A DNA stretch of 64,000 bases from Tubiluchus corallicola (lineage: Eukaryota > Priapulida > Priapulimorpha > Priapulimorphida > Tubiluchidae): contig JAQGDQ010000311.1 of assembly GCA_030141605.1 (NCBI GenBank), forward strand, positions 216,150-280,149, read 5' to 3'. The notes beneath the pieces are model-generated. The model did no database searches and was not told the origin of the DNA. It was given only the letters and a program-made list of their open reading frames with translations. This document shows positions 975 to 40,100 of the stretch, piece by piece (position 1 is the first letter of the stretch; every line of letters starts with the position of its first letter). The translations under genes were made by a program, and so were the position numbers.

Positions 975-1136
975 ATGAGAGAGTCTTCGCTAGGCGTCGA
1001 TGTTTACGGGCAGCCTTCGGGCTAGCGCTGCCGGGAATGGTCATCGTGCCACTCACTTGCTGGTCAGGACTGCGAGGAACCGGGTCACTAAATGCCGAGC
1101 TTGGGATGCACTTATGATGAAAAACTTGCTTACAAC
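975..1136 (-). CDS. MYO9: MYO9 exon 33: second half of C1 zinc finger
   Basis: 162 nt; encodes CKQVFHHKC, supplying Cys1521, His1526 and Cys1529 of the C1 finger, then a Pro/Ser stretch and [14 protein letters not shown]. The eighth zinc ligand, expected seven residues after Cys1529, is Asp; a Cys may come later, since the exon ends with T of a split codon. Acceptor ATCATAG, donor GTAAGT. RhoGAP exons should follow beyond the window. Confidence 0.92.
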
Positions 1137-4100
1137 CTATGATAAGAGAAAACAATAATTTACTGGTAAGCAGATGGTTTAATGTAAGAAAGAACAGAAA
1201 TGAAGTGAAGCATGACCGACAACTTTCTCCACATGAGCAAAATAGAAAAATATCAAACTAGTGAACACAAAATTATATTTAGGTAATGAAAAAAGAAGTG
1301 AGTTACTAACATTAAAAATACAAGACCGTTTTGACCTGTTGATATACAAAAGCGTCCAAACAAAAGCAGTGGTCACTCAAGAAGATGAGCATCCTTAGTC
1401 AGACTGGCAAAACACATTTAGAAAACTAGTATTCTTAGAACTAAGTTAAAAGTAATTGACCGGATGACCTACAAAAGCATCCAAACAAAAGCAGTGGTCA
1501 CTCAAGAAGATGAGCATCCTTAGTCAGACTGGGAAAACACACTTAGAAAACTAGTATTCTTAGAACTAAGTTAAAAGTAATTGACCGGATGACCTACAAA
1601 AGCATCCAAACAAAAGCAGTGGTCACTCAAGAAGATGAGCATCCTTATTCAGACTGGGAAAACACACTTAGAAAACTAGTATTCTTAGAACTAAGTTAAA
1701 AGTAATTGACCGGATGAATTACAAAAGCATCCAAACAAAAGCAGTGGTCACTCAAGAAGATGAGCATCCTTAGTCAGACTGGCAAAACACACTTAGAAAA
1801 CTAGTATTCTTAGAACTAAGTTAAAAGTAATTGACCGGATGACCTACAAAAGCATCCAAACAAAAGCAGTGGTCACTCAAGAAGATGAGCATCCTTATTC
1901 AGACTGGGAAAACACACTTAGAAAACTAGTATTCTTAGAACTAAGTTAAAAGTAATTGACCGGATGACCTACAAAAGCATCCAAACAAAAGCAGTGGTCA
2001 CTCAAGAAGATGAGCATCCTTATTCAGACTGGGAAAACACACTTAGAAAACTAGTATTCTTAGAACTAAGTTAAAAGTAATTGACCGGATGACCTACAAA
2101 AGCATCCAAACAAAAGCAGTGGTCACTCAAGAAGATGAGCATCCTTATTCAGACTGGGAAAACACACTTAGAAAACTAATATTCTTAGAACTAAGTTAAA
2201 AGTAATTGACCGGATGATCTACAAAAGCGTCCAAACAAAAGCAGTGGTAACTCAAGAAGATGAGCATCCTTAGTCAGACTGGCAAAACACATTTAGAAAA
2301 CTAGTATTCTTAGAACTAAGTTAAAAGTAAAAAGCTGATGTCCTTCTTCATGTTTGAGTTTGTCTTGATGTTTTTCACGTATAACATTGTAACACAACTA
2401 GGCCCTTAGATACTATATTTTTAATATTTAATTTAGTTTTTATAGCAAAATACATTATTTTAATTTTACTTGAGTGACTAACTGCGTCAAATATCCATGC
2501 AAACTGAAAATTTTTTTCTACAGCCACTTTTGTCAAACCTTCACTCTAAAAACTGGTGAATTTTCCTTTTGCTTGAGCACATATAAGAACATGGCGTGAC
2601 TTACTTGAGCACATATAAGAACATGGCGTGACTTACTTGAGCACTTATAAGAACATGGCGTGACTTACTTGAGCACTTATAAGAACATGGCGTGACTTAC
2701 TTGAGCACTTATAAGAACGAAGCGTGACTTACTCGAGCACTTATAAGAACAAAGCGTGACTTACTCGAGCACTTATAAGAACAAAGCGTGACTTACTCGA
2801 GCGCTTATAAGAACATGGCGTGACTTACTCGAGCACCTATAAGCACTTATAAGAACATGGCGTGACTTACTCGAGCACCTATAAGCACTTATAAGAACAT
2901 GGCGTGACTTACTCGAGCAGCTATAAGCACTTATAAGAACACAGCGTGACTTACTCGAGCACTTATAAGAACACAGCGTGACTTACTCGAGCACTTATAA
3001 GAACACAGCGTGACTTACTCGAGCACTTATAAGAACACGGCGTGACTTATAAGAACACAGCGTGACTTACTCGAGCACTTATAAGAACACAGCGTGACTT
3101 ACTCGAGCACTTATAAGAACACAGCGTGACTTACTCGAGCACTTATAAGAACACAGCGTGACTTACTCGAGCACTTATAAGAACACGGCGTGACTTATAA
3201 GAACACAGCGTGACTTACTCGAGCACTTATAAGAACACAGCGTGACTTACTCGAGCACTTATAAGAACACAGCGTGACTTACTCGAGCACTTATAAGAAC
3301 ACAGCGTGACTTACTCGAGCACTTATAAGAACATGGCGTGACTTACTCGAGCACTTATAAGAACACAGCGTGACTTACTCGAGCACTTATAAGAACACGG
3401 CGTGACTTACTCGAGCACTTATAAGAACACAGCGTGACTTACTCGAGCACTTATAAGAACACAGCGTGACTTACTCGAGCACTTATAAGAACACAGCGTG
3501 ACTTACTCGAGCACTTATAAGAACACAGCGTGACTTACTCGAGCACTTATAAGAACACAGCGTGACTTACTCGAGCACTTATAAGAACATGGCGCGACTT
3601 ACTCGAGCACTTATAAGAACACAGCGTGACTTACTCGAGCACTTATAAGAACATGGCGTGACTTACTCGAGCACTTATAAGAACATGGCGTGACTTACTC
3701 GAGCACTTATAAGAACATGGCGTGACTTACTCGAGCACTTATAAGAACACAGCGTGACTTACTCGAGCACTTATAAGAACACAGCGTGACTTACTCGAGC
3801 ACTTATAAGAACACGGCGTGACTTATAAGAACACGGCGTGACTTATAAGAACACAGCGTGACTTACTCGAGCACTTATAAGAACACAGCGTGACTTACTC
3901 GAGCACTTATAAGAACACAGCGTGACTTACTCGAGCACTTATAAGAACACAGCGTGACTTACTCGAGCACTTATAAGAACACAGCGTGACTTACTCGAGC
4001 ACTTATAAGAACACAGCGTGACTTACTCGAGCACTTATAAGAACAAGCGTGACTTACTCGAGCACTTATAAGAACACAGCGTGACTTACTCGAGCACTTA

Positions 4101-7100
4101 TAAGAACACAGCGTGACTTACTCGAGCACTTATAAGAACGGCGTGACTTATAAGAACACAGCGTGACTTACTCGAGCACTTATAAGAACACAGCGTGACT
4201 TACTCGAGCACTTATAAGAACACAGCGTGACTTACTCGAGCACTTATAAGAACACAGCGTGACTTACTCGAGCACTTATAAGAACACAGCGTGACTTACT
4301 CGAGCACTTATAAGAACACAGCGTGACTTACTCGAGCACTTAGAAGAACATGGTGTGACTTACTCGAGCACTTATAAGAACACAGCGTGACTTACTCGAG
4401 CACTTATAAGAACACGGCGTGACTTACTCGAGCACTTATAAGAACACAGCGTGACTTACTCGAGCACTTATAAGAACATAGCGTGACTTACTCGAGCACT
4501 TATAAGAACACAGCGTGACTTACTCGAGCACTTATAAGAACACAGCGTGACTTACTTGAGCACTTATAAGCCCCAGAAAAGCTACTGATACTCTTGCTGC
4601 ACACGCTGCAGGTTTCATGCCGATAGATTTTCGTAAGTTTGCGACTGTGAGTGCAGATCGACTGTACATTCTCATTCACGGCTTCGTTGACACCAGCTGC
4701 TTAAAAGAAAAATAAAAAATGCTGATTTTACTTTTTGTTATATAGTATGGAGTAAAACAAAACATGTGCAATTTGAATTTACTAACCAATTATTAAATGT
4801 TGCTAAATTGTAACGTAACAGCGTAATTCTGAGTGCAAAATGCATCTCAAATGCACACTCGATTTTTTTGCCATCTTCCAATGGCTTTCATTACATAATT
4901 TGCACACGAGCTGAAATCTTTAAAAGCCAAAGCTACAGGACCAAGTAAAAAGTAGGGTAGATTTTATGTAAGAATTTCTGAAAGCTAATAAACATTTCAC
5001 ACATTATTAGTTTTAATATAAAACAAATCAGAAGTAACAATATTTAATCAAAACCATACCGTCCATCCGTTGCTTAAGAAGGAGGAAGTCACTTGTCAAG
5101 TCCTCCGGTGGCGACTCCTCACTGTCGTCAAACTCTCTCTTCATTGACTTGTCTGGCTTCTTACCACCTGAAGCCATATTATATAATTTTAATTTATTTA
5201 CAATTCAGAAAACACGATAAAATTGCACAATTTGACGTACTTGACCTTCTCATATTCTTTGATTTTAAATTGCCAAATCGTAAATGCAAATTTCTTTCAA
5301 CATTTCACAGTCGGTCAATTTCATTGATCATAGTTTCCAAAAACCCGCCCCTAAACCAGCTTGCTTGATTGTTCAAACTAGCAGCTTTTTCTAAAGAAAA
5401 CGACTGCATCAAAAACGTCCACATGATTATAGGAATCAATACTTTAACGAAACAAAAGTAATTATTATGGTACCAAGCATGCGTCTTATGTTTTTCTTCA
5501 CACCAGAGAATGGACTACTATACTTCAGACCAGCTTTTCCATCAGTGTCGGCTTTGCTCTTCAACGCGTGTTCAACTTGACTAGCGGAGGAATGATGCTT
5601 CCGATTCAGCCCATCTAAACTTTCCTAAAACAGAAATACAATTCTAAGTAAGTTTCAGCACGTTAGTTTGCGCAATTAGTTGCTCCACACAGGCTGTCTA
5701 GCACTCAATGTACAGAGGTAGTAAAGTTTATGCATAATAAAACATAACTGTCGAACATGTCGCAGGTGCGAGCATTTAATTTACAGTTCATAAATAATTT
5801 TGATTTGTAGTTTTAAACTTTTTGTTTTTCATTACCACTAAGTCAGTGCTGACATCTGTTGGTACACTTGGAAGTTTTCAATATATGTATGTACTTGCTA
5901 CTGGTGTATGTTTGTATAGAACTGGGTCACTGGACTTCTCTATGAATAACTGCTACTGTTGACTTGGTAGCAAGATGAGTGGACAAGCAATAGGATTAAA
6001 CTGCGGTTTTGATTATTATAACGTTTGTGACTCAGGTGCAATGATATATTAGCAGATGTATTGACTTTAACTTTTGTTTATTGCTGTTTATTTTCGTGTA
6101 TACGTGTATTGATTATGAGATTATGATTTCGAATACAATACAGATCGCAAAGTTAATTTTCATCCATTGATTTCATCTGTTCAACACGAACATCGCAACT
6201 ACAAAAACAGTCTGATAAACCTGCCAATGTCGGTTGTTAGCTCTCCCCAAAACACCAAAGCGAAACTTTAGCGTCACGACAGAACAGCTAAAGATTAGAA
6301 TAACAAATATTAAAAATTTTCCTAAACTAAGACCTAGTGAAATGCAAACGCTTCCTTTCGATATTTAGCTAGAAGACCAAAGGCACATTGTTTGACAAAG
6401 AAGCCCTCATTTAAAGCTGTTCTAGCACCCTAGTTGCAAAGCATAAAACATTCTTGATAAAGAAGTTAAAGGAACAATGAGAAAACATTTCTGCATTATC
6501 GTAATCCCAAAATGAGGTATAGAAGCATTCTCCCTCTAAATACAATGCAAACTTACTTCTGATAACAAATACTTGCTTCTGACAACCTAAGAACGTGAAT
6601 AAAACAAATAATAGTAAAAAAGCCAAGTGCTGAGCTTAGTACAAAGTATGCAATAATGTACATCAGTCTAAACCCAGCAGTAAAACTCATTATTAACCAT
6701 TATCGTGTTATTAGTAAAAAAGCTAAGTGCTGAGCCTAGTACAAAGTATGCAATGACGTACACCAGTCTAAACCCAGCTGTAAACCACATTACTAACCAT
6801 TATCGTGTTATTAGTAAAAAAAGCTAAGTGCTGAGCTTAGTACAAAGTACGCAATGATGTACACCAGTCTAAACCCAGCTGTTAAATTCATTACTAACCA
6901 TTATCGTGTTATCCTGCTGCTCTGACAGGCTACGTCCTAATGTTGCTGCGCGACCCTCATTGTAAGACCTGCGAACTAACTCAGCCTTCTCCCTATTCGT
7001 GACTTGATCAATGATTGACTGTTGACTGGAGAATGATCGGGACTTCTTGTGGACTTTATTTCTCCTCCGAGAAACATCGGCGGATTGCTCCGTCCCTTGT

Positions 7101-10100
7101 TCATTTTTGTCTCTGCAAAAAACATTTTATAAAATGAACAAATTTGCTACAAATAAAAAGTTGTGAATGTACGGTTGCTCAAAACAAGAAAAATATACCA
7201 CAAAATTTAATTAACTGCAAAGCCTGATAGTGGTTAGAAACATTACTCACTCAAGCAATTTTTTAGACATGTCTTCCGTACGGGAGACAGAATGATCACC
7301 GTGGTGATGAACTCTTCCCAAACTTCTAGATTTTTCCATCTTCTGTTGAATTCTTTTTCTGATACGTGCAAGCTCAGCTTCCGCATCATCTGTGATACCG
7401 CTACTTCTAAAAATGTTATAAAAGTATGTACAGTAACAGTTTTTGGTATCACCTATTTTAATATATAAAACAGATGCTTCCTTCAAATAAACAAATATTG
7501 TACAGTTTGAACTGAAAGAGAAATCAAGTCCAAAAAGTTTCAAAAGTTTAAACCAGAACTTACAAATTGGTTGTCGTAGTTTCTACTACTTAAAGGACAA
7601 GAGAAGGGTCACCTGAGTAGGTTTCACAAAAATCATCTTAAAAACTATATTACTTTACAGCAATTTTATGCATATATCGTGTTCAAAGGATTTTTTGTTT
7701 GTTTTCATTTTAAATCTCCCGCAATATTGTTCTAACGGCGCCATTACATGACGTCACTACGCCACGTAAATCAAGGGAAGAAAAGGCAATGTCCTTAAAT
7801 CTCCCGCAATACTGTTCCGATGGCGCCGTTACATGACATTACTACGCCTATGCCAATCTACATACCTGCTAGAAAGACTTATATAACTAGACTAATAATT
7901 TAAAATGTTTGTGCCAATTGGTAAAATATCGCTAACTCACCCTCCAGGGTGCGCCACTCACTAGCCAAAAATGTATTCTTAATCTTATTGACAAGGTACA
8001 GTAATTTAGAATTTTATTTAGTTAGCAACATGTATGCTACGAATGCTCTGATTATTTTTTCAAACTTTACTCAGTGTTATCTAAACTTGTTTCAAATGAC
8101 CTACCATTAAAATGGCTGAGCCTAACGGTCATCGCGGGAGTTTAAATTTACATGTTTCATACAGAGTTACAGCCGATGCAAACTCTGCATTCAAAAAATT
8201 TATACGCAAGTGGGATAAAATTCGAGATGAATTTTTTCAGCTTATTGTAAGTGGAGGGTTTTCTTGTGCTTAAAACGTCAATGAATGTTAATCACCAAAA
8301 CTGAAATCATTTCGGTGCTTAAACATATAAACTTCAGCATGGCTGCTGATCGGATTCACAATCTTATTTCAAGAACTTTGTAAATAAATATACACAGCGA
8401 CTGTAGTACAGGAACTATGATTGAATACTCAAATATTGTTAAACATTAAACGAAGATTTGTGCAAAAATTTAGTGATAAATCCTAGATATCCAGCAATTT
8501 CTGAGCAAGTAATCGCAAGTACTTCCAAGATAGAAACTGCGTATTTCATCAGTGACTCACCAGCTGTTAACCCCGAATTTCTCATTCAATTTGGCACAAC
8601 TATAATATGAATTTTTTGCAATCAAGACATGAATTAAACCTCAGAAAATAAGATGATAATTTATCTGGCACTTAATTGTTATTCTCAATACTAAACTGGC
8701 CGTAATTTGTACCAAACTAAGCTGTTTTCTGTGACGAATCTACCCGAGGATTTTGCAAACTCAAATACTCACTCTTCCGAATCTTGCCGCTTTTTTTGCC
8801 GAGAGGGAATGTACTCTTTGACAGGTGATAAGGTATCTGACAAAACAGTCTTCCTGCTGCTGTCGTGCGTCAGTACTCCCTCATCGCTCTGAGAATGATC
8901 ACCTTTACTGCTTGTTGGACTTGGCTCTAATGGCGTGATTTCTAACAAAATTAACAAAATAACTTCCAAGTTGAACTCATAGACACAACGGATGCTTACA
9001 TTCAATTAAGGATACTTTAGGAGATCTAGTATGAAAATCTTACGACACTTAAAAGCGTGTTAAGTCATACGATAGTGATGAAACAGAAATAAACACACTG
9101 AATCAATTTTATACTACACTGCGCTGAATTAAATGTATTACACATAACACGACACATTATATGTCAAGTATGGTTATTAAAACTATATCTCTGCTAACAA
9201 TATAACTTGATAAACACACAGAACTGCTTTCAATTGGTCAATGAACTCATGTTAACAAAAAACAGTTAGTACTGCAAACAGAAGCAAAGTTAGCTCACTT
9301 ATTATCCATTATAAATCACTGCACTGAACACATAAATTTGTAGATATAAAGTTGGGGTTCAATCACCCACCAATTAAGCAAACAGGGTTATTTAGGTCAC
9401 GTCTTTACATACTTTTGTCTGCTAGCATTTAACTGCTTTGGAAAAGCTTAAATATAAATATATATATATATAAAACAATAGTCTTCTATTCCTGTTCGTG
9501 AGTTTTCATAAGTATAGCTATGGGCCAAACTATATACTGATTTTTAATGAAAATGGTTAATTACAATAGAGAATGTAGGTGGCTGATAGAACACAACCAT
9601 TTTTTAGTACTAAAATGCTAAAAAAATTTACGAAGAAAAATGCATGTAACAAATCAGTTAAAATAAGATTGAAGTCAACATCTAAACCTTCAAGTGCATG
9701 TTACGTGACCTTCAAGTGTATGTTAGTTGACCTTCAAGTGTATGTTACTGACCTTCGGGTGTATGTTACTTGACCTTCAAGTGCATGTTACTTGACCTTC
9801 AAGTGTATGTTACTGACCTTCGGGTGTATGTTACTTGACCTTCAAGTGTATGTTACTTGACCTTCAAGTGTATGTTACTTGACCTTCAAGTGTATGTTGC
9901 CTGACCTTCAAGTGTGTTACTTGACCTTCAAGTGTATGTTACTGACCTTCAAGTGTATGTTACTTGACCTTCAAGTGCATGTTACTTGACCTTCAAGTGT
10001 ATGTTACTGACCTTCAAGTGTATGTTACTTGACCTTTAAGTGTATGTTACTTGACCTTCAAGTGTATGTTACTTGACCTTCTAGTGTATGTTACCTGACC

Positions 10101-13100
10101 TTCAAGTGTATGTTACTTGACCTTCAAGTGTATGTTACTTGACCTACAAGTGTATGTTACTGACCTTCAAGTGTATGTTACCTGACCTTCAAGTACATGT
10201 TACTTGACCTTCAAGTGTATGTTACTGACCTTCAAGTGTATGTTGCTTGACCAAGTGTATGTTATTCGACATGTAAGTGTAGGTAACTTAAACTATATCT
10301 TTCGAGGAAGTGCTCAGAGTTATTCCGCATACAGGTTAAAAATTAAACAGCCAGTCACTGTTCTTTTCTTCTTATTCACAGCAACCATTCACTTACGATC
10401 AATAATACTAGACAGATCCATTGTCATGTGTCTACCACTGATGCCCGTGTCAGCGTAACGAAACTGTGGTCGCGGAGGTTCGGGAAAATCGGGCATTGGT
10501 ATCAATTCCATGTCTTCGCTGCGGGGATGTTTCGGTCGCACTAGTTTACGCCATTCGTCTGCGTCAGTGAAAAAGCAAACAAACGTATACGCATTCTAAG
10601 CAGTGTTAAAAATGACGACGAGACACTTAGTAAACATTGTTAAAAACCACTCAGTAATTTTAAATATAAACAACTATTTACTCTTGTACAAATCAAAAGC
10701 ATACAAGATCGCTAGCGACAACGGTTTTTTGTGATTTACACAATTGCTATACAATGTAAAGCATCAAACCATCTTCAAAAATTATCTTTAACATCTTTAA
10801 CACGAACATTAACATTAGCAGTGTTATAAAGCAGTGAAAGCACAGTCATTCAAATGTCAAAGCATCAATGTGATCATGCAACGGCGACGGTTAAAAATCT
10901 CTACAACGTAGTTTAAATACCGTTCCGTCGAAAAGGTAAACTTCTCCGCTTTTTTGATTCGTCGATTTCCACTGTGATCGAAGTCAAATCGACAGGCGAC
11001 GGCTGCTCCTATAAAAAATATGCAAACTTTAAATACATTTGGAAAATTATAGAACCAATAGAACTTATAATTTTTATATTGCATACTGCAAAATGCTGCA
11101 ATAAAAGGCATACAGCAAATGAACGCTCTTCAATGTTTCAATTAAAAAAAGTTTAAAGGAAAACCGGATGATTGTGTAAACACGAGTTCAGAATAAAGAA
11201 TGCTCTAAAATATTGAAAACTACAATAGCTTATTTTAAATCAAAGCTTAGATTAAATAATAATTACCTCGGATACTCAAATTTCGTTAAACTTTCAAAGC
11301 TACACGCGGCTCAGTGAATCTACTAAGACTGGCAGCGGCGCCTTTTTGTCACATTCACATGGCCGACAAATAGAGGGCGGTACCGTGATAAGCATGATCA
11401 TGAACAGCCGTGTTAGTTTCTGACGTCGTATGATGTACAGCCCATTTTTCGTGACATCATGCGTTTAAGCAGTACAGTAACACCTATGCAAACGTGCTTG
11501 ATGCGCAAGGGAAGATGCCTGCCATTGCACAAACTGTGGTTAGTTTCTCACGTAACCAATAGCTGTGTTCGATTGCCGCTAATTAACCTTCTAAGCTAAT
11601 TATTCAAATATAAGCAACAATTACTAACTTTTATAGGCAAGAAAATGTATATTTTGGACAGTAAATTAAAATGAGATTGAGTCTAAACAATCGTCCGGCC
11701 TTCCGTTATTTAATTGCAAAAATGAAATGATATATTTAAAGGGAACGGTTGGCAAGAAAAAGTTTTTTAACTTTGTGAAGAGATGCTCATCTTTCAAATG
11801 ACAGTATTTACAACCATTTTGCCAGTGCTGTGATGACAAAGCACATACTTGAGCGGACATTACACACAGAAGATTTGTGTTGAAAGGGATGTTGACCGAG
11901 TTCTAAATACATACGTAAGTCAAATGAAATTAGCACGTCTATCTAACATGTGACCTTAGAGTCAGCATAAACTCAAACAAGTTTTCTTATTTCTACATTT
12001 TTATTAAATTAATTTAACGCTATTTTTCACTTCACATGCCAAATGATATCAGACATTCAGCAATATGCAATACCTTTCTATTATCATGTAGATCCAACTC
12101 GACCTCCAATGGCTTCCCAGGCGGTGATCCCATCTTTATTTCTCCATTTTCCAACTCGAGTTGCAACTCGGCAATCCTCAGTTTCCGAGCTGCTGCGGCT
12201 TCCTCCTCCAGCTGCTTCCGCCGCTTGGCTTCTTCAACAAGTGCCTCTTTGTACCTATAATCATCGGGAGGAATGGGGGACGTGTACCTGTAAGGACCAC
12301 AGCCAGGTCATGCCAAATGGGTTAGTAATAGTCTAGGGATGTGAAAAACAAATCAGAAATTTCTTTCCTCGGTTGTATTCGAATTTACTACTGAAGTCCC
12401 AAACAAGTCACGAGGCACCGAATCCAGGGTCGTCCTACGGAACCTTAATAAACTAATAAACCTCAAGATGTCTCTATAAGCTGTAAGAAAGTTTCTCAAG
12501 CTTGTGTAACAGGTTTCATGAATACCAATGAAAGCATAGTATCAAATGTAAACGGACTCAAAGATTTAGTAGACCAACCTGACGACAAATACAAAATTTA
12601 TCTGATTGAACTAATGTTAACTGAGATAATATAATATACTTGCAAGACTAAATATGAGGGAGAGTTTTTCATCAAGAACAACAAGAAAAATAACTGTTCT
12701 GAGTTAATTGAAAATAAGTGCTACAACTGTGCAGTATTCTTTCAATTGGACAGTCTGATATGCAATTAAGTTTTGTATCGCTAACTGCAAAATTGTGGAA
12801 AAACAATAAACCAGCAATGCAAGAAAGCAGGTGAAATCAATCCATTTGACGAGCGACAAAACCAAAAGCACATACAGTTGACGAAAGCAGAGTAAAAACA
12901 GCAGCAAACATGAATGCCAATGAAAGCAGAGTAAAAACAGCAGCAAACGGTGACGTAATCTTCCATTTGCTTGAGTTTGAGATAAATAGCGGAAGCTTGA
13001 CACCACATTTTAGCGCCGAGAAAACAACACAACAAACAGAAATCATTGCTAAACAAAGGCTAATTTTAATAAAAACATTCGGTCTAAAACAATTAGTGGC

Positions 13101-19100: not shown

Positions 19101-22100
19101 AAAAATCTTGCCATGTATTCACCAGATACAACCACACCAGCTAAGTACATTTCCAGCTGTACAAAAACACAAAAGCGTCTTTAGTACGATACTGCAAAAA
19201 TCATTTAGCCAAACTAGGCACTACCAGAGACAACACTGTCGTTAATTCAGCATTCTCACTCACCTGAAACTGAGCACAGACTGTGGGAGATTTCTTCTTT
19301 GACTTGTAAGTACCATAACCAGCTACCACCTTCATTGACTTGATGTCAATTAAACCCTAAATAAAACACAAATTGCAAATTACACGAGCTGCTGCGACGA
19401 CATCGAAGCAAAAGTCCAATGTACAAAATCAGCAACAACAAGAGCAAGTTTCACAAGAAGATGTTTCTGCAATTTGTCATTTTTACCTTGTTACTCCTCG
19501 TTCTCGGTTTGAAAGATTTGTTCCTCCTAAATAAAAGAACGAGATTTAGTACCGGTACAAAAAATTTCACTTTGTCATCACATATGTTACGCATTAGGCA
19601 AAAACTTTTAGATATCATTGTCAGCAAGGAAGAGCAAAATTTCGGCTAACCTTATTTAGTTAAACTACATCGTAATGTTCTTTCTGAGGTGCAAAAGTAA
19701 CTCAACAGATCTAACAGGGAAAATATCCCTAATAAAACAATTGTTTATTAATTAAAGGGAAAAACTGTCGGCATCCCAATATTTGAAACAGTTACAATTA
19801 ACAAATTAAAATAATATCAAGAGAAATAAATTTAGAAAAGCAATTTAGTCTTAAAGTGGTTTGTGCGGTTTCAGTTTATAATATTAAATAAAGAAAATAG
19901 ATTTAAAACTTCCTTCAAGTAATAACCTAGGTGGTTCTTTTTCAAACCGATGAGAACACAAAGTACCATTCATCAACACATTCATCATATTCAGAGTTAA
20001 CAGGCCAATGCTCTATGGGCAGAACCCTAAATTGCTTCTACGAGTTTAAATATTTTATGTTACGATTCTCTGCAGTGATTTTCACAACAAAAATTGAAAC
20101 GATGAAAAGTGAATTTCCAAACGGATACAGTGATACCTCGAGATACGAAATTAATTCGTTACGGAGGGGTCTTCGTCTCTACGAGACAAGATTCACCATA
20201 TAAATGACGTAATTCATTTCAGTCCCAGAAAACAGTCGTATAAAGTGTAAATACTTTACCCACCCGAAAGAAATATGTTCACTAATGACCGATCGTCGAA
20301 GGGTTTCGCTTATACTCCCCCGAGATAGCACTTAAATGCATGCCAATTTCATATTTAGCTGTAATTTCAAGCTTTGTTTCCATAGACATCATTCTTTTCT
20401 TCTTATCACTACCAATGGCACTTTCATATTTTTTGGACCCATGGTTATTAAATGCGTTCACATGAGATAAGAGCACAACAATGCATTCACGCGATGCTAC
20501 GAAATGCATTCTGGGAGGACCGCTGTCGGGTGGCACTTTTGATTTTCATTTTCGTATGTTGAATATTTTTTCGTTAAATGGACGGAAATTTTTTCGAAGC
20601 CCGATTCATATTCTGAATTTTGCGTATACGAAGGTTTTTGTAAGTCGAGGTTCTACTGTATGACAAAAACAAGAAGACGACGTCACAGTTATTACAGAAA
20701 ACCCATCACCACAATCTTGTGTAACAACACAATGCGTGGGAAGCACAAAATAAAAACTTCTTATGATTTCCTTTCATGCTTTTCTGTATAACAAACTACA
20801 TACACCATTTCCGAGCGAGTAATTTTTAAAAAAATTAAAAGGACTGTCAGTAAATATGCTGACTCTAAATACTTTAAATGGTGACTTTGTCAGAGCGTTA
20901 TAGAGTTAGTTCGCTTATTGCATAAGTCTCAGTCTGGATCAAGCACCCAAAGAGGCCTGTTACTTTGTTTAGGAAGTTTTCAGCTAGCGGTAGTTCTGAA
21001 ATAATGTGCGACATTTGCTAAAATCACATTCTTCGGTGTACATAAATATATTTTATAACGTATACATAAAATAATAGAGCATAGACATTCTTATAAACTA
21101 ATAGCCACAACTCAATAAATGAATACAATATTCTTCATGCAAGTCATTTCAAAACTTTAGCCAAAATTGAACTCATCAATAGGCGGATTATTTGGCAAAT
21201 GCAAAGATGAGTTTACGTGCAGAAAGTATGAGAAACAATTCTAACTAGTTTAAGGGAGAGTGCAAAATATAAGCAAAAACCATGCATACATAATGATTTT
21301 GTTGGCTTTTGCGAACACTTTGTTCTCTTCTTCGGACGGATAGCCACCGTTGACCTGCTCTTCTATGTTCCTGACGGTGGCAGATACGCTTATCATGGGA
21401 GTTCGCACTGACGACAAACGACTCAAATATTTAGGCACGTTTCTACGGTTACTACTGAAACATACGGCAAACGGTAAGGATTTGTTAGTACGCATAGGCA
21501 GAGAAGAAATATACTAAAAGCGACAGCAAGAGTTTAGTACCTATGTCTAGTACCGTTTATTTCTATGCACAGTTTCTATTCAAACAGTTTTTGTAATTCT
21601 AAACCAAAAAATGTGAGCAAAAACACTAAAAATGGTAAAATATCAGCAGTTTTCCATAAAATGGTACAACGCTAATGAAAACCACCAGTTTCCTAAAATC
21701 TAAAACAAGCACTAAGACAAAATTACGGCTATTTTCATGTTAACAAGGGCCTGTCTTATAAATTATTTTGTCTATGTATCAAATTGCAAACGCATATCAA
21801 AATCAGACACGTGGCAATGCAACATTTAACAAATAACTAGACAAATTCCAAACGATACACACAAAAAGCCAAGCACTTAATAATCAACATGAACAGGAAA
21901 CAAAAGTCTTCAGAGGCAACACAATGCGCACTCTTGCACACAACGAGGCAGACTTACGCCATGGCACGCAGCATGGAGTACACTTTGACTGTGCGCACAA
22001 TGTCACTGGAAAGCAAAAATCAATAAGCTAACAAAAGTAGTAACAAAAATTAGAGTGGATTGCAATTCAAAAAGTCTGCAAGGATAAGAAAGACACGAAA

Positions 22101-25100: not shown

Positions 25101-28100
25101 AAAAAAAATACACCAAAAACAACTTTCTTATGCTGCTATTGCAGTTCTTCTGCGTTATATATATGAACATGTTCTTTGGTAGACATGAAAAAAGCTCAAT
25201 AGTACACAAAAGTGCTTAAAGCAAAACCAGATCCAATCTTAAACTGTAGGTCAAAGAAACCTGCTCATTAAAATATTGAAAGTAAACATACTATTTTTTC
25301 AGGAATCACTTGCGTAAAAGAATTTATACCAGACATACACAATTTCACGTTCGCGCCGCTAGTTCTTCCCTGTTACATGCATTTCACCATTCGTTAGTTA
25401 AACAGACACTAGCGCCTGCATTTCGGAAATGGGTGCTGTACCTCTCAGTAACAGATGTGTTAGTTTCTGACAAACTACACACATTCGTCCGGTCATGCGT
25501 GAGCACAGCCGCTAATTCGAAATCTGAATTTTTACCTTAAAACTTGCCTAGTTTTAGCACAACACACTGAATATCTTACAGTGGCACTGTACTTCAATTT
25601 TCGCTTTCGCAAACACGTGCAACACGCTCGTGGAATTATTTTGCTGTTGAAATTATGTTAGTTTGTGATGTTATTGACAGTTGGAGTCGCGCATGTTAAT
25701 TAAGTTTTTAATCTATTATTTACTTATCAGAAATGCTTTTGCAGTATTACTTGTGTTAAAATGTATGCTTTTTATCGAACTTGAAAGTGGGAGTAATATA
25801 TGAATATTCATCCTGTCTTCCTTTAATTTTCAATAATTGTAATATCCTTTAGTGCAGTGGTTCCCAAAGTAGGGGTAAATTACCCCCCGGGGCTAATATG
25901 TTTTTTTGGGGGGAGGGGGGTAACGGGCACCCCTCTGAAAATTTTTAAAACTTCGCTCGGAATGCATTTTAAGTAGTTTTCTTCTTGAAGAGACTGCACC
26001 TGGAACTTTATTTATGTCACGAGCAAACATAAATAATTTTGCTTGGTTGTAGCATATACGTGTGTTTACTTTTTGAGTTGGAGAAGTAGTACTAGGTGGG
26101 GGGTAATGGACACGACCGGGTTTCCCGATTTGGGTAACAGTCCGAGAAAGTTTGGAAACCACTGCTTTAGTGTAATATACATCATAAGACTCATGGTTGC
26201 TACTGTGTTACTGAGGGTAGTACTACTGATTGTGTTGTGGTTAGTACAGATGGCAAAGGAAGCCAATGAAGCTAGGTGGTTCACAAACTTGCCTGTGAAG
26301 TTGCAGAATGTGCGAGAACTGAAATTTGATGCATGTGCACATGTGAAAGACTTAGAATGTGTGAAAGTTGGCAGGTCATTGCCTACTAGTGAAGGTGAAC
26401 AGTCAAACTTCTAGGTAGAAACAAGAATAGGTATCTGTCCCACTGAGATAACAGATAAACAGCAAGTTTATCACAGTAACAATGAATGGATAAGCCCAAG
26501 GTTTTTTGTGTTAGTAGATAATCCACAAATAAAATGGCAACTGTAAGTAAAGTACAATAATAGCTTATATAAGAACAGAAGTGAAACTAGAGCAAGTCTT
26601 GACACGAACACTGTGTACAGCATACATTATAAAGTACAATAATAGCTTATATAAGAACAGAAGTGAAACTAGAGCAAGTCTTGACACGAACACTGTGTAC
26701 AGCATACATTATTAAAATACAATAATAGCTTATATAAGAACAGAAGTGAAACTACAGCAAGTCTTGACACGAACACTGTGTACAGCATACATTATTAAAG
26801 TACAATAATAGTTTATATAAGAACAGAAGTGATACTAGAGCAAGTCTTGACACGAACACTGTGTGCAGCATACATTATTAAAGTACAATAATAGCTTATA
26901 TAAGAACAGAAGTGATACTAGAGCAAGTATTGACAAGAACACTGTGTACAGCATACATTATTAAAGTACAATAATAGCTTATATAAGAACAAAAATGATA
27001 CTAGAGCAAGTCTTGACACGAACACTGTGTACAGCATACATTATAAAGTACAATAATAGCTTATATAAGAACAGAAGTGATACTAGAGCAAGTCTTGACA
27101 CGAACACTGTGTACAGCATACATTATTAAAGTACAATAATAGCTTATATAAGAACAGAAGTGATACTAGAGCAAGTCTTGACACGAACACTGTGTACAGC
27201 ATACATTAGCACATTAGCAAAAACAATATGCACGACATACCTTTATCTGATACTTGACACTACCAGCATAATGCTTAATGATGAAGGCACTTTCTTTTTT
27301 AGCGGGTATTTCATAGTAGGAGTTGTTCTTATGTTGCTGATTGAACTTGGCCAATAGCGTGTCATTTGTAGCACCGGGAAAACTAAAATACAGAGAAGCA
27401 TTAGAAATATTTACTGAAAGAAATGACATTGCGGCTAATTTAAATGAAATCATTATAATTACTTTTCTGAGATAAAAAACTTGGCAGGTTAAAGAACATT
27501 AATTCATTCGAATGCTCGCTCATAACTAACAAAATGGCTGAAAAAATTTAAAAATTTGAAACTGGCACAACATAAAGTGTTACTGTTTTTGATACATTTT
27601 TCTAATACATAAGGAAGTTAGAAATGTCATTTTTTTAAATGTTTATCTATAGCCAGTGTTAAATGAGGTACTATAAAAAAGAAAAGAGTACAATTGCAAC
27701 AGTAAAAATATCCAACTAGAATAACAACTCTTTACTTCAAGAAGTATTAGCTACAGGTATTCGAAAACGGTTTTACCATAAAAAAATGGCTGCTGCGTTA
27801 GGTGGAACCGGGGATGGTACTGAAACCAAAATTTCATTTCGGTTTGTCGATAATTGTATTTTCAATTTAGTTTCGTTTTCGCTACAAATTATTAAGTTTC
27901 GTAGGTGAAACTTTCAGTAAACTTTTTCCGAGATTTTAATAATATTTATCCTGTTTACCTATTTTTTCTGCTACATGTTAAAAATTGCTGAAAAAAATTG
28001 GCTAAAATAGTTCAAATAAAGCATAAATATTGTATATTTAATTTTTTGTACCATTTGTAGCATGCTTTTTACGGCAATGCGGCATATCTTCAGTGTTGAC

Positions 28101-31100
28101 GACTGTGAAACTTTAAGGTCTCCAGTCATAATCAGCCGAAATATCAAAGTATTGTTTGAATAAAGTCACGTTTAATTTCGTTTATGAAATATGAGCAACA
28201 AAATAATTACAAAATAAAAGTTCTCAATTTTCTTGAAGCTTCATGATGTTTAACCATAAACATTGTTCTACTTTTACGGTTAAGATTTTTTGCTTAGCTA
28301 CTTCAGCAAACGTCTATCAGAGCAAATCACAGCAGACGAGCAAAAACAAAGTATTTTATTTATTCCAGAATTTTCTTGAAATTTGACAGTAGCTGGTTTT
28401 GGCAAAAAAAGATTTCCGTTCGGTTTCGGTGTCGGTTTCCCATGTTTCATAAATTTCTGTTTTGGTTTGCAATTTCAGTTTCAGTAACAACCCTGGGTGA
28501 AACTGACACAGCAAAACCAGTATGTGGCAACAAAAATGCTTGAAACTGTTCTTGAAACAAAAAAGTTAACGTACAAATGAAAATCAATGAAACTTCTACA
28601 AAATATCAACACTCATCAGAAGGTACTTTCACTTATTACAAAGCTTTGGTACTGCAGTTTCAAGAGTTATTCTAATTTGCGTAATTGATATTTTGCACGG
28701 ATCTTGAAAAACATCAAATCGTCTATTTTCTTAATATTTAGCATTCTAACAAGACTCTTCTTTATAGGAGCTACAACCAAGCAATCAACCCTTCTGAAGA
28801 TCTGCACTTTTTACACCAGCAGATGTAAATCAAACACTGTAATATTACTAAGGTCGTACTAAAGTTGCTGACTCAACATGAAAACAATGCTTAACAAGCA
28901 TGTCGCAGATAGAAATGGATTGAAGATGCCTAGAGGGCAGTGTAAACAATAGCAATGTGATTGAAATGTGTAACTGTAATTGGTGAATACTAGTAAATTT
29001 TTTTACTGTTAAGAAAAGTTAGCTAGCTATGCCACTGCTACTATCCAAAAAGCTCCACTACCACCATAATTACTTATACGCTTGACCAACACCGCGTGTT
29101 ATGTTCACTTCTCAAGTGTTGTACAGTAGTACCTCTGTTCTCGACCATAATTCGTTGCTAAAAAGTGTTTGAAAACCGATTTGGTTGAGAAGCGAATCAT
29201 TTATTCCCATAAGAAATAATGTAAAAGCAAATAATCCGTTCTCAAGCACCAAATGAACTGAAAGGTATTACTAAAACGAAAGATAATGATGCAAAAATGT
29301 TTATTCAAACAGTAGACATGACATAATTGATAAGAAAAACATAATAGAATTACTTTGAAAGAACAACATAATTGTTCTTGCACGGAAAAAGCAGAGAAAA
29401 ATAAGCATAGAAAGGCGATTCAAATCTTGTGTGTGACTACTTTCTGGCGCGGTCGGTTACGCTCGGCTCTACTCGGCTCGCCGCGCATGCGTTCGTCACG
29501 TGTTCGGCGATTGGTCGAGTACCGAAATTCTGGTCAAGAGCGGAGAAAATTTCAGCTCGCATTTCCTGGTCGGAAACCGATTTGTACGAGTACGGAGACG
29601 TTTGAAAACGGAGGTATGACTGTAATATATGACTGTATTCTTTGCAAACAGAACAAGCTATCTTCTGGTGCACAAACACTATTCACCGATTTCATCAGAA
29701 TTGATTAACTCATTTATAGGACTTTCTAATTCTATTAATGAAACCATGCAGATAAAGAAGCAATGCCATTCAATGTATACGTGATTTCAATTCTAATAAT
29801 TAGTCCAAAAATGTTTCGCAAATGGGTTTTTCAAAGTAGATGATTGCATCAAATCGCAATTTCAAATTTATTGCAATTTTTTGGAAAAAAATGGATGCTT
29901 TCCTTAATAAAAAAATGATAAAAACTGCAGGTAATTTGGTCATACAACATACACAGTTAATTTTACCTGCATTCTTCATCTAGCAAGGCAATTAACCCAG
30001 TTGGTTTTCCTCCAATCAAGTTTAAGCACAGCGTGTTGTCAATGAATGATATATTGCTCCATTTAATGCCTTCCCTTATGTACTCTTCTTGCTCAAACTT
30101 AAAAACATGCTGGTTGAAGTAAAACTGCAGCTGCTCGTTCGCATAGTTGATATTGAACTGTTCAAAATTGTTCTTGTCAAAGTCCTCAAAGCCAAAGATG
30201 TCGAGAACGCCGATAGAATTTCGCTAAAAAAATTTAAAAAGCATAATTTAGCTTTTTATCTATTTCTTAAAATACAAATCTACCTCCTAGTGAAAAAATG
30301 TATCACCAAATTTTCATTCCTAACATATTTTACGGTCCAACTGCATAGTCCACACTGCTGAAAGTTGTCAAGGAGTGTTGCAACCAGTTCCTCTGTCAAG
30401 TTACTCTAACCTGAAGGGGGCAAACTTTTTGCAATAGTCTCTAATGTTCTGAATTTAATGAAAATTAAATTTTCCCAATAACAAAATTATTTCTAGTTGT
30501 TGCAGCACTCATTTTAGGATAAAATTTGAAATATGTGTTTTAATTAAAATACACTAAAATGGCAGTCTGTCCATCATAATTTTGTTTTATAAAATTTCAA
30601 AGTAGCTTTGTTAAGCGTGTTATTCTATATGAGTTATAGGATAGTGCAAACTGAAATTGCCTGCAAGTACACTGCTGGGCTGAAAGTGAAGTTGCTTACA
30701 TTGCTTTAATATTAGTACAGTGAAACAATGTTCTACAATACAATACTCTGCTTTAATATTAGTACAGCGAAACAATGTTCTACAATACAATACTCTGCTT
30801 TAATATTAGTACAGCGAAACAATGTTCTACAATACAATACTCTGCTTTAATATTAGTACAGCGAAACAATGTTCTACAATGCAATACTCTGCTTTAATAT
30901 TAGTACAACAAAACAATGTTCTACAATACAATACTCTGCTTTAATATTAGTACAGCAAAACAAGGTTCTACAACACAATACTCTGCTTTAATATTAGTAC
31001 AGCGAAACGCATGTTCTACAATGCAATACTCTGCTTTAATATTAGTACAGCAAAACAATGTTCTACAATACAATACTCTGCTTTAATATTAGTACAGCGA

Positions 31101-34100
31101 AACAATGTTCTACAATACAATACTCTGCTTTAATACTAGTACAGCGAAACAATGTTCTACAATACAATACTCTGCTTTAACATTAGTACAGCGAAACAAT
31201 GTTCTACAATACAATACTCTGCTTTAATATTAGTACAGCAAAACAATCCTCTACAATACAATACTCTGCTTTAATATTAGTACAGCGAAACAATCTTCTA
31301 CAACACAATACTATCAAACTGAAGCTTATTTCACATTATTTCATTATCGTTAACATAAATGTAAATTTATCTAAAAACTGACTCACATGATGATCTCCTC
31401 TGAGTGTGTCCTTCTTCGACATGAGAGCGTGGTTCAACTGCAAGACAATCCAATCAAAGATGGCGCCATACAGGCATTTAGCTACAGCATCACGTGTTGC
31501 AATAGCCTGTAATTAATAACAAATAGCACTGTAGAATTTTTATTGCTAATTACAATAAGTATTTGCTTAACAATGCTAGTTGGCTTAGAACTTACAACAT
31601 GCTGTGATAATCTAGGAAGCCATTAAAATAAGCTGTTTATAGACAATAATGCAAAAGCAAACTATCTACTGAAAATAATGTTAAGTGCACAATTTTGTTC
31701 TTCACTAAAAATGTATACTGAATAAGTTAAAATTATGAATATGTAAAATATTTTGATATATGGTTCTAGCTAACTGCAGTTAAAAAGTTTTTAAACGAAC
31801 ATAGTGACTTGTACAGTCTGCATAGCCACTAAACAACAGGTAATTGTGTAATTATTTTTACATAATATGGTGCACAATACTTACTTAAATTTCATTTAAA
31901 ACTTGAACCTAAGATGATGTTTCTTAGACACGCATACTTTTCTTTAAAAAAATTAACAACTTGACTCAACGTGTACACATAACAGAGTATTGTACAGAGG
32001 AATTTCATCAAAATAGACATTTGCCACTAGGTGAAGTGTGCCTGCAATAATGGCAGAGAAGCTGACCCCTCTAGGCTCAAGCCAACAAATACATAAATAT
32101 GGCAGACTAACATTTAAGAAAGTGACACAGTGCCAAAACATTAGTGCAATTTTAATGTGAATGTAAGGTCATTAATCTGTTTGACATTTGTTGTTAAGGG
32201 ACAAAATGAATAGCGAAATTTCGACACTTGTCACTAAGATGGATGTTAGACTTAGACGACTTTTGTTTCTGAAATAACGTAGTTTTTTGTTTTTAAAACT
32301 GTGTGAGTAATTTGAATACCAAAACTATCACTCACGTGTTTATTAAATTTTGGATACCTATAATAAGAAAAAAGCAAAACAATCTGATCCAGCATTAAAT
32401 TCACCCTGCCCCAATCATACAACTCATAATGGCTTTCAAGTTAATTATAATGCAGCTCACCGAAAAACCACCAGCTAATACAGAAATCACTTTTTTCTTC
32501 CACACAGCTGTTAAGGCTGATTCCTCCTTAAAGAAATTTTCCCTTCAACAACTTAATGTTAAAAACATGTTCAAGAAGTACACCATGATTTTGAATCAAC
32601 ATGTAGAATTTTACCATTTCTCCCAAAGCCTCTAAAATGTAATTACAGATGTCGATCAACCCATCTGTATTTATCCTATCCCTTCAGCATGAAATACAGT
32701 CTCAATTAATTGTGTGCCACTGACTGTATTAAAACACATGTTTGCATTTATCTTTAGCACCATCTTCAATCTAAAGATGTTATCAGTCAATCGCTAAGTG
32801 AGAACTGTAATTTGTCTTACCTCAGACATGTTGAAGTTCATCACTAAGGTTTCGCCTCTTGCCGTTGTTTTCTTACTGGTCAGTGCTGTGTTCAGCGTTT
32901 CTTCCTTGACCTATGTGAACAAAAAATGCTCTATCTATTGCATTTAACTGCAAAAGAGTCAAAAGAGTGATTTCATGTATTTAAGTTTTAACAGAACGCT
33001 AAGATAATTTTCTATTGCTTCTCTAAATCAGCTCATCGTCTGTCTCACCGATCACAGAAATTGAACATCTGTTTAGTGAAATTTACCTTCTAGAATGCAG
33101 AAACACATCGTTTTCTGGAAGACTACAGAAAAAATTAACAACAACAGTGAGAGCCCGAGTGGTTCTGTGTCCAGCTACCTAACCTGCTGGATAACACATG
33201 TGCCAACTGTTGCCTTCAATACAACCAAATGCTACAACTTGTTCTTAGACAACCTCTTCTTAAGAAAAAGTACAGTTTGCCTTCGAAACAATCAAATCTG
33301 TACAATAAAGGCAAGCCCTTATGAAAATTCATAGGCGAAAATGATTTTTTAATATGTTGTCAATGTGTTGCAGAAACACTCCACACACAAATAGCACGAC
33401 ATGGACGACTAGCCAACAAGACCGACAGCAGTACAACAAACAGCTCATTGTTACAGCACCAAGATTCATTCTCCTGAAAATTGTTTAGTTTAAACCCAAA
33501 CATGGAATAGAACCATGTTCTTTCGAATCTACTGTGCAGCTAAACAAATTATCGGTTCGGTTTTCAAACACTACTACAGGCAGCCAGTTACAAAGCCATA
33601 ACATGAGCGATATATAAAGTTTTATTCTCCTGAAAATAATTAGTTTAAACCCAATCATAGAATCGAACCACATTCTTTCGAATCTAAAGCAATAACATTG
33701 CCCAGTTCAGCAAATTATCGGTTTTCTGCAATTATAAAGCCATAACACGAGCGATATATAAAGTTTTGTTCTCCTGAAAATAATTAGTTTAAACCCAGTC
33801 ATAGAATCGAACCATATTCTTTCGAATCTAAAGCAATAACATTGCCCAGTTCAGCAAATTATCGGTTTTCCGCAATTATAAAGCCATAACACGAGCGATA
33901 TATAAAGCTTTGTTCTCCTGAAAATATTTAGTTTAAACCCAGTCATGAAATTGAACCATGTTCTTTCGAATCTAAAGCAAGCACACTGCCATAAAGACAT
34001 AACATGAACGAAATATAAAGAATACCTTGAGAGTGTTTGATATGACTTGAACAACAGCTGGATTGCTAACCATGACCACTTCATCTTGATAGTGATGACT

Positions 34101-37100: not shown

Positions 37101-40100
37101 ACAGTTAATCACAATAAGGATTATTAATATTTCGGAAAATCGTTCCCACCTTCATCAGTTTACATAAAATTAAATACACAGCATTTAACAAATGTGAATC
37201 TTATTTTGCATTTTATAATAGTAGGCTAGCAATACAACAGCATTAGCAATGTCCAAATTCCAAGTCTTAAACAAAAGTGTCCAGCCACACACTCAACACA
37301 TGGGTCACTCAACACATGTGTACAAAACGGTCAGGACACTGCAAACTGCTTAAATAAACTCTGCATAATGTTAATAGTAAATAGAGCATACCCCTGTAAT
37401 CAGTAAAACATCAATGTCTTAGTATTTGAGCAACTTAAATATTTAGTGAGTAAACATATAGTGAAAGTAATAGCAATGCCCACGGAGTACAACCTGCAAT
37501 ACTGTTGCTAGGATCAGGAAGATGGAGTTAAGCATAAAGGAAATATGTCACACTTTCTATGCAAATATGGAGACTTTAGTACCTGCCATGAATTAAGTCA
37601 AAAGACTAATCCTGTATAAGTCCTTTGTAACAAACTATGAATGCAACACTCACACTAAAAGGCATTCAGGAGAATATGAAATGCTGGTCACTTAAACCAT
37701 TTGTGTTTATCTTGGTGACTTGAAGGAAAACCGGACGATTGTTTAGACTCAATCTTATTTTAATTTACTGTTCAAAATATACATATTCTTACTTATAAAA
37801 GTTAGCAATTGATTCTTATATTTGAATAATTAGCTTAGAAAGTTAATTAACGGCAACCGAACACAGCTATTGCTTACGTCAGAAACTAATCACAGTTTAT
37901 GCAATGGCAGGCATCTTTCCTTGCGCATCAAGCACATTTGCTTAAGTGTGACAGTACTGCTTGATGTCACGAAAAATGGGCTCTACGTCATATGACGTCA
38001 GAAACTTACACTGCAGCTCATGATCACTGTTATCACTGTACCGCGTTCTATTCGTCAGCCACGCGAATGTGACAAAAAGGCGCCGCTGCCAATCTTAGTA
38101 GATTCACTGAGCCGCGCATAGCTTTGAAAGTTTAACGAAATTTGAATATCCGAGGTAATTATTATTTAATCTAAGCTTTGATTTAACATAAGCTATTGTA
38201 GTTTTCAATATTTTACAGCATTCTTTATTCTGAACTAAAGTTTACACAATCACCCGGTTTTTTAGGCCATTTGTGCCTATACCTAACATCCAAATGTGCT
38301 GTTCCAAGTTTTTTGGAACACTGTGACCTACTAACTGTTTTTTAACGCGCTGGGAACACACACGTGCATCCATGCAGGTGGTGCAGATTGCAACAATACG
38401 TCACCCCATTTAACCATTTGCAAAGAACAATATTTGACTTAACGTAAAAACATGGCCGTGCGCCATTATCTAGACCGAGAAAAACAATGGAAGACAAACA
38501 AAACAAAAACCAGACCTCGAGTGTTTTTACAGGTGCTCCAAACTTAAAAACCGCAAAGCTGTCACACGTAAAATATCAAGTAAAAAAAAATTGTGACTAT
38601 GCTTGCTCAAACGTTTGCTTAAACGGCTATAATGCAGTGAATCCACAATCAAAGCAGATGAACAAACTTTTTAGTGTAGTACGTAAATATACATAAAACT
38701 AATTACATTTAAAATAAAAACGTATATGACGTGCCGTAGCAAGGAACTTAAAAATAAAATTTTACATATAAGACATGACTAAAGTTAGTATGCTTTGATT
38801 TCTGGTTTTCTTTTTAGCTTTTCATCCAACCTTAACTGATTTTGACATCGATCGAAACCAGTCTTTTGAAATTCCTCCGATTTAAATTTTGACTGGCGAT
38901 GACACTAAAGTTAGAAACAAAATGCCAAATCTCAATCCATCAGACTGACAAGAAGTTTTTGACAAGAAGTTATTCCATCTTTACATTACTGTATCTGCTT
39001 TACCGTAAATTTATGCATATAGTATAACTATTATTATTCACAATGTAACCTCGTATTTTATTCTCAAGAATTTCTCAAGTATATATATATATATATATAC
39101 AAACACCTAAAAAATGTCATGAGCCTGTAAGTAAACTTGTATTTTTAACAAGGGGCAGCTGACCAAGTGACCAATAGGTCTTTCGATGAAAAGAAAAGTA
39201 ATTATGTCGAATTTTAACTGCTACTGAGAAAATAAAATTGAATTGAATTGAGCCGTAAGCTGAAGTGCATCTGAAATTCAGCGAAGTGTACAGACCACTA
39301 TACGTTCTCATTATTAAAAATGTAGTTTTGCAAAAAGGTAAAACGCCTCCTCGGCAAACTCTGGGAGACTGTTTCAAAGCAAGACATCAGACGTGTCATT
39401 GGACATGTTCCGGGGGTTCATTCCACTGAATGTGTGAGACTGGACAGACTTGACATCCTGCAGTTTTTTCAAGCAGGCAAAAATTTATACAAGAAGGCTA
39501 AGACACCTTCATTAATCCTTAACGAAGTCCAAACAACAATTAGAGATTTTTATGCAAAGATTTAACTGGAAATGGTGGCTGATATTGGAGTTTCATGTGT
39601 TAATCATTAGCAGAATAATGTGCTTTGAACAAGATAGTAAAAATACAGAAGCTTAGCAGCAAAGTAGTTCTTTTTAGATTTTCGTCCAACTTGACTAAAA
39701 GAATAGCTAAAGTTTTGGTTCACTATATGTTGTTAAAAAACTATAAAAAATACAATTTGCATACCGATTTCTGCGACACCCTGTACATAAAAAGGTAATG
39801 TTTGTTAAAAAACTATAAAAAATACAATTTGCATACTGATTTCTGAGACACCCTGTATATAAAAAGGTAATGTTTGTTAAAAAACTATAAAAAATACAAT
39901 TTGCATACTGATTTCTGAGACACCCTGTATATAGAAAGGTAAAAGAAAAAACTTAATACACATGTAGTACTAAAATAAACCCACTTTTTGCACTCTGGCA
40001 AAGGTGCGCTGATAGCCTACCTGATTTAAATAGTGAAACTCTTCCGGTTTGCCAAGAGAGAGCGCTAACTTTTCCTCTTCCGATGCCCCTGCCAGCAGGT

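Follow-up and report, generated by a model that had tools for sequence, protein, structure and literature searches.

The window analysed here, a 64,000-nucleotide (nt) stretch of Tubiluchus corallicola DNA (contig JAQGDQ010000311.1, hereafter C382, positions 216150-280149), carries on its minus strand a part of a class IX myosin gene in which a minisatellite with a unit of 32 base pairs (bp) straddles the boundary between an exon and the following intron. The unit resembles the exon end together with the 5' splice site, so that the intron opens with dozens of near-identical donor motifs in tandem. The genome comprises 343.5 Mb, and the G+C content around the window is 35.6% across 264 kb. Coordinates are those of the window unless stated otherwise.

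Results

The exon in front of the array, E25 (4556..4699, minus strand), is framed by the acceptor TTTTAAG|CAGC and the donor CTCAA|GTAAGT and encodes the first C1 finger up to the residues YKCS. The next exon, E26 (975..1136, minus strand; acceptor CATAG|GTTGTAAG), completes the finger. Joined, the two exons match Pfam C1_1 at 27.0 bits (cut-off 26.5), which bears out the proposal of the initial annotation that YKCS of a C1 finger is encoded at the end of the exon. The exon borders at the array are supported by this C1 domain and by the open frame, since the 11 modelled exons E21-E31 are open in a single frame. The array interrupts the first C1 finger of its host gene. Downstream of the array exon follow a second C1 domain (32.8 bits) and the beginning of a RhoGAP domain (29.9 bits, the first 39 of 148 positions); myosin head exons lie upstream on C382. 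An IQ region was judged by eye only. Myosin head, C1 and RhoGAP stand in one gene, and the second C1 and the RhoGAP start therefore identify the host as a class IX myosin. Our exon numbering (E25 is exon 32 of the initial annotation) derives from a model that is incomplete toward the 5' end, in which E4, E7, E13, the E17 donor and the gene's 5' end were not found; E18-E38 joined yield no open frame, and the model loses the frame from E32 onward. An Rfam scan of the window returned no family at gathering score. Searches for COX1, arthropod cuticle and mollusc haemocyanin (PF00379 and PF14830 for the latter two) gave no match either, although the two Pfam families were equally silent in the controls.

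On the gene strand the array unit reads CTTATAAGTGCTCGA|GTAAGTCACGCTGTGTT, i.e. 15 nt resembling the exon end followed by 17 nt resembling the intron start. According to Tandem Repeats Finder (TRF) the array runs from 4570 to 2575 on the minus strand, inside the interval 2567-4696 for which a 60-copy minisatellite made of exon end and donor had initially been annotated. The minisatellite is thus real; it does not start at the true donor, as had been supposed, but 15 nt upstream of it, and includes the last 15 bases of the exon. The earlier figure of about 60 copies can be made more exact: TRF gives about 61 units (47.9 + 13.3 copies), and the donor-bearing copies number 58; five further short units (18-20 bp) are without a donor, at least 12 bp having been lost around two internal TAAGT motifs. 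GTAAGTC occurs 58 times between 4555 and 2604, once as the real donor and 57 times as a copy, at a spacing of 32 bp save for eight steps of 31, 42, 50, 52 or 72 bp. The authentic 5' splice site CAA|GTAAGT (4550..4558, minus strand; first intron base G at 4555) is followed by the 57 downstream copies at 2599..4523 (minus strand; first bases 4523 to 2604), 53 of which read CGA|GTAAGTC. CAA|GTAAGTC is present in five cases only, at the real donor and at the four most distal copies (2700-2604). The last 15 exon bases differ from the unit consensus by a single mismatch (CTCAA vs CTCGA). More than half of the donor-bearing units (36/58) equal the consensus. Neighbouring units are more alike than expected, adjacent units differing by 0.93 vs 1.46 in shuffled order (0/5000 shuffles). 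TRF also delimits three 42-bp variant units (2800..2969, minus strand). At its distal end (2566-2590) the array closes with an incomplete unit that has GCAAAAG in place of the donor, so that its final portion is the exon-like half of a unit.

Searched against the genome for exact matches only, a 20-nt core of the unit gives 48 hits, none of them outside the array. As the core matches are confined to one locus, the array has most likely expanded in situ. Its growth from the exon/intron border, as initially suggested, likewise appears the most likely origin, given this single locus and the one mismatch to the exon end.

Each of the 57 inner donors, if used, is predicted to lead to a stop 18 or 38 codons past the normal exon end; the added length is divisible by three for 18 of the 57, and a stop would still be reached. 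The earlier claim that the second donor shifts the frame therefore holds and extends to an early stop for all 57 alternatives. The predicted product of the second donor, one unit longer, has no C1_1 match and remains below the cut-off for C1_2. Among 11 genome matches to the U1 small nuclear RNA gene, nine score above the gathering score, and the one gene examined has the canonical 5' end ATACTTACCTG, in agreement with the U1 match to A|GTAAGT on which the initial annotation had relied. A simple U1-duplex energy is equal for the real donor and the copies (-5.6 kcal/mol). In a donor matrix built from 31 further donors of the myosin IX gene the real donor scores 8.7 vs 7.6 bits, i.e. the copies are 1.1 bits weaker. 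Nor does accessibility clearly set the real donor apart, its value being 0.0037 vs a median of 0.0025 for the copies and its rank 25 of 58. From the energy, matrix, folding and accessibility results it follows that sequence alone gives no reason for the outer donor to win. A special RNA structure hiding the inner donors was rejected on the folding z score (0.74) and the accessibility values, and recursive splicing was rejected by inspection, the unit being without AG|GT.

The 33 introns modelled for the myosin IX gene were scanned for repeated splice-site context, reaching no more than 2500 nt away from a splice site. The 23-nt exon/donor context of E25 recurs at 23/23 in the following 2500 nt, while 30 shuffles of that stretch reach at most 15/23. 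The context is repeated at one further donor (E22, 22/23) and at one acceptor (E34, 22/23); the remaining donors reach at most 15/23 and the remaining acceptors at most 16/23. E22 (6899..7112, minus strand) ends ATAACACGATAATG|GTTAGT and is straddled at its donor by a second array of three 100-bp copies (6612..6912, minus strand), which begins 14 nt inside the exon. The second copy retains GTTAGT, the third reads GTTAAT, and the copies, if used as donors, are predicted to lead to a stop. At E34 a tandem duplication spans the 3' splice site; its two copies stand 105 bp from each other and lie on C382 beyond the window itself (window coordinates -8214 to -8319).

Boundary repeats also occur outside this gene. 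Eight other myosin loci, picked by protein matches and not for arrays, were covered by nine stretches totalling 64.1 kb; among their 35 exon matches a single one carries a repeat of this kind. This array, on C2144 (36 bp x 9.9; L036:3201-3555), starts inside the end of a myosin-head exon, and 6 of its 9 copied donors are without GT (two AT, four GC), a decay that would be expected in the absence of selection. On the same stretch, L036:4591-4813 and 5243-5503 hold two 25-bp arrays of near-identical unit, inverted relative to each other and separated by about 430 bp. A 33-bp array at C5:114068-115527 (minus strand), picked from a pattern search, has the donor CAG|GTAAGT in most copies seen and starts within an open frame that has both an acceptor and a donor. 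A relationship of this gene to phosducin was considered and rejected: the Phosducin match was found only on C572, and the PDB match has an E value of 5.7. Repeats of the same type at other exon edges suggest that boundary duplication is ongoing in this genome.

Further minisatellites of the myosin IX gene, all on the minus strand, start shortly past a donor: a 22-bp array (9686..10289) after 107 bp, an 83-bp array (26548..27208) after 32 bp, a 47-bp array (30702..31312) after 74 bp, a 144-bp array (33588..33980) after 45 bp and a 72-bp array (39730..39942) after 78 bp. The intron of the 32-bp array also contains eight copies of a 125-bp unit of other sequence (1331..2330, minus strand), away from the exons. 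At a TRF score of at least 200, the start of 7 of the 10 arrays of the gene falls no more than 110 bp past a donor (expected 0.87; 0/20,000 placements), whereas for none of the 10 does the end come that close to an acceptor (expected 0.86), nor even within 150 bp of one. At a score of at least 50 the figures are 9 of 22 at donors vs 2.4 expected, and 2 vs 2.4 at acceptors. The 110-bp limit was set after the data had been seen, and missing exons make some modelled introns too long. In the neighbouring WDR1-like gene, named by eye, not one of four arrays comes as close as 110 bp to a donor (expected 0.52), and one of the four is that close to an acceptor; of the three larger arrays on C2144, a single one touches a donor.

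Genome-wide, three MAG|GTRAGT motifs in a row give 929 matches vs 162 for the reversed pattern, an about six-fold excess, and AGGTRAGT triples give 1,976 vs 245, partly owing to a dispersed satellite. Bare GTAAGT triples show no excess to speak of (18,832 vs 18,402 for the reversed control), and many of those among the matches listed are tetranucleotide runs. All these counts are overlapping matches and not arrays; the C5 array alone gives 28 of the MAG|GTRAGT matches listed. That 5' splice sites are birth hot spots of minisatellites in this lineage, perhaps via transcription- or U1-linked breakage past the exon, appears doubtful, and we regard the clustering of arrays at donors as a lead rather than a result.

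Other repeats and open frames were seen in passing. A dispersed repeat with a unit near AGGTAAGTCAAATGTGACTT is found at 46018-46579 of the window as well as on C17, C26 and C38; it occurs in both orientations in the window and, as far as seen, has no link to exons. Positions 89-836 hold about 750 bp of ATC trinucleotide repeat enclosing a CA stretch. On C382, outside the window (window coordinates -28213 to -26741, minus strand), an open frame of about 490 codons contains a 93-bp tandem repeat (-27925 to -27685) that is possibly coding. An open frame at 20282-20545 (minus strand) resembles, by eye, a fragment of a pogo/Tigger transposase, with a near copy at about -50378 to -50151.

Discussion

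Our analysis makes it very probable that the myosin IX array is a 'mirage' minisatellite, i.e. a near-neutral tandem duplication across an exon edge. In such a scenario a short stretch spanning the exon end and the 5' splice site would have been duplicated in tandem, and slippage or unequal exchange would then have expanded the array to about 60 copies. The coding copy would most likely predate the array, since a conserved zinc-binding cysteine is specified by the exon portion. The outermost donor alone would be bounded by a real exon with an upstream acceptor, and exon definition would hold splicing on this donor. The other 57 donors would be ignored, or rare early-stop transcripts would be removed by nonsense-mediated decay. 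The array itself would be close to neutral, without a function of its own.

Several observations weigh against this scenario. The U1 duplex, folding and accessibility give the outermost donor no clear edge beyond the 1.1 bits of the matrix, and among donors of equal strength a downstream one is sometimes preferred over an upstream one, so that the outermost donor need not be the only one used; we infer its use from the sequence. All 58 GTAAGTC motifs are intact, which could hint at constraint, although homogenisation may explain this as well, since so many of the units are identical. At none of the 12 donors checked in the WDR1-like gene does the context recur, and the copy number is known from one assembly.

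A rival explanation is a functional array, either as a tandem U1 platform against early cleavage/polyadenylation or as a means of tuning myosin IX output through stop-containing isoforms. The many GTAAGT motifs matching canonical U1 and the early stop predicted from every inner donor are in line with such a role. We nevertheless consider it quite unlikely, as donors decay in the sister arrays (the third E22 copy and the C2144 copies), no special RNA fold is seen and the real donor is no more accessible than its copies. Another idea, itself compatible with a mirage origin, is that the inner donors are often used and that noisy or regulated alternative splicing is tolerated. The copies nearly match the real donor in strength, but each would break the C1 domain and everything downstream, and the data reported for amphioxus mirages in passages of PMC3087553 and PMC3902484 suggest normal splicing; frequent use of the inner donors is thus unlikely.

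Two further explanations concern where the repeat came from. The genome is rich in minisatellites and contains at least one unit with AGGTAAGT that is dispersed (C17, C26, C38), so that a dispersed satellite or mobile repeat could in principle have landed at the donor. The confinement of all exact core matches to the array and its reach of 15 nt into coding sequence, however, make this extremely improbable. Misassembly could have produced the array or its length, and one amphioxus mirage was indeed misassembled in a draft, as a passage of PMC3087553 states. Here the copies differ in an ordered manner and the pattern recurs at several independent loci, which renders an artefact very unlikely. 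A mirage minisatellite remains the explanation we favour.

The array provides a natural test of how one donor is chosen where dozens of near-identical ones stand in tandem; the readout is clean, since each wrong choice would end the protein early. Recurrent boundary duplication also bears on intron length change and possibly on intron origin.

A minisatellite that supplies several donors, as the myosin IX array does, is reportedly present in the human gene 6-16 (IFI6/G1P3), which Turri, Cuin and Porter are said, by the title of their 1995 paper (NAR 23:1854), to have found to yield multiple splice donor sites. Its unit is said to be 12 bp long and its copies are reportedly used as donors, whereas the myosin IX unit of 32 bp shifts the frame and its inner donors predict an early stop. 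In the model of Rogers, as outlined in part of PMC3087553, introns are gained via tandem duplication of AG/GT sites. This model starts from the same sort of boundary duplication as seen here; unlike such intron gain, the myosin IX array has brought no new exon or intron, and no acceptor was recognised in the copies.

Literature searches, mostly not naming myosin IX and covering few subscription papers, found no publication on the array among the matches listed. The closest known systems are the amphioxus mirages. Passages of PMC3087553 describe them for the globins BflGb6 and BflGb9 and cite an Adh3 mirage from Canestro et al. 2002, and parts of PMC3902484 add PGBD5 and troponin C. Many amphioxus repeats bear AG/GT signals, the length of the clusters is unstable, and the data suggest that regular splicing is undisturbed (PMC3087553, in part). 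In size the myosin IX array, with about 60 copies and 58 donors, differs from the 6 or 3 units of BflGb6 and the one duplicate of BflGb9 given in the same passages. Like the amphioxus mirages it spans an authentic exon-intron boundary (exon end 4556, donor 4555), and as in them its unit appears to derive from that boundary and not from a dispersed repeat; judged by its sequence, it shares both features that define a mirage at this level. The G+C content of amphioxus is higher than the 35.6% measured here. The phenomenon is not singular, and the myosin IX array is a large, tidy case of an already known kind.

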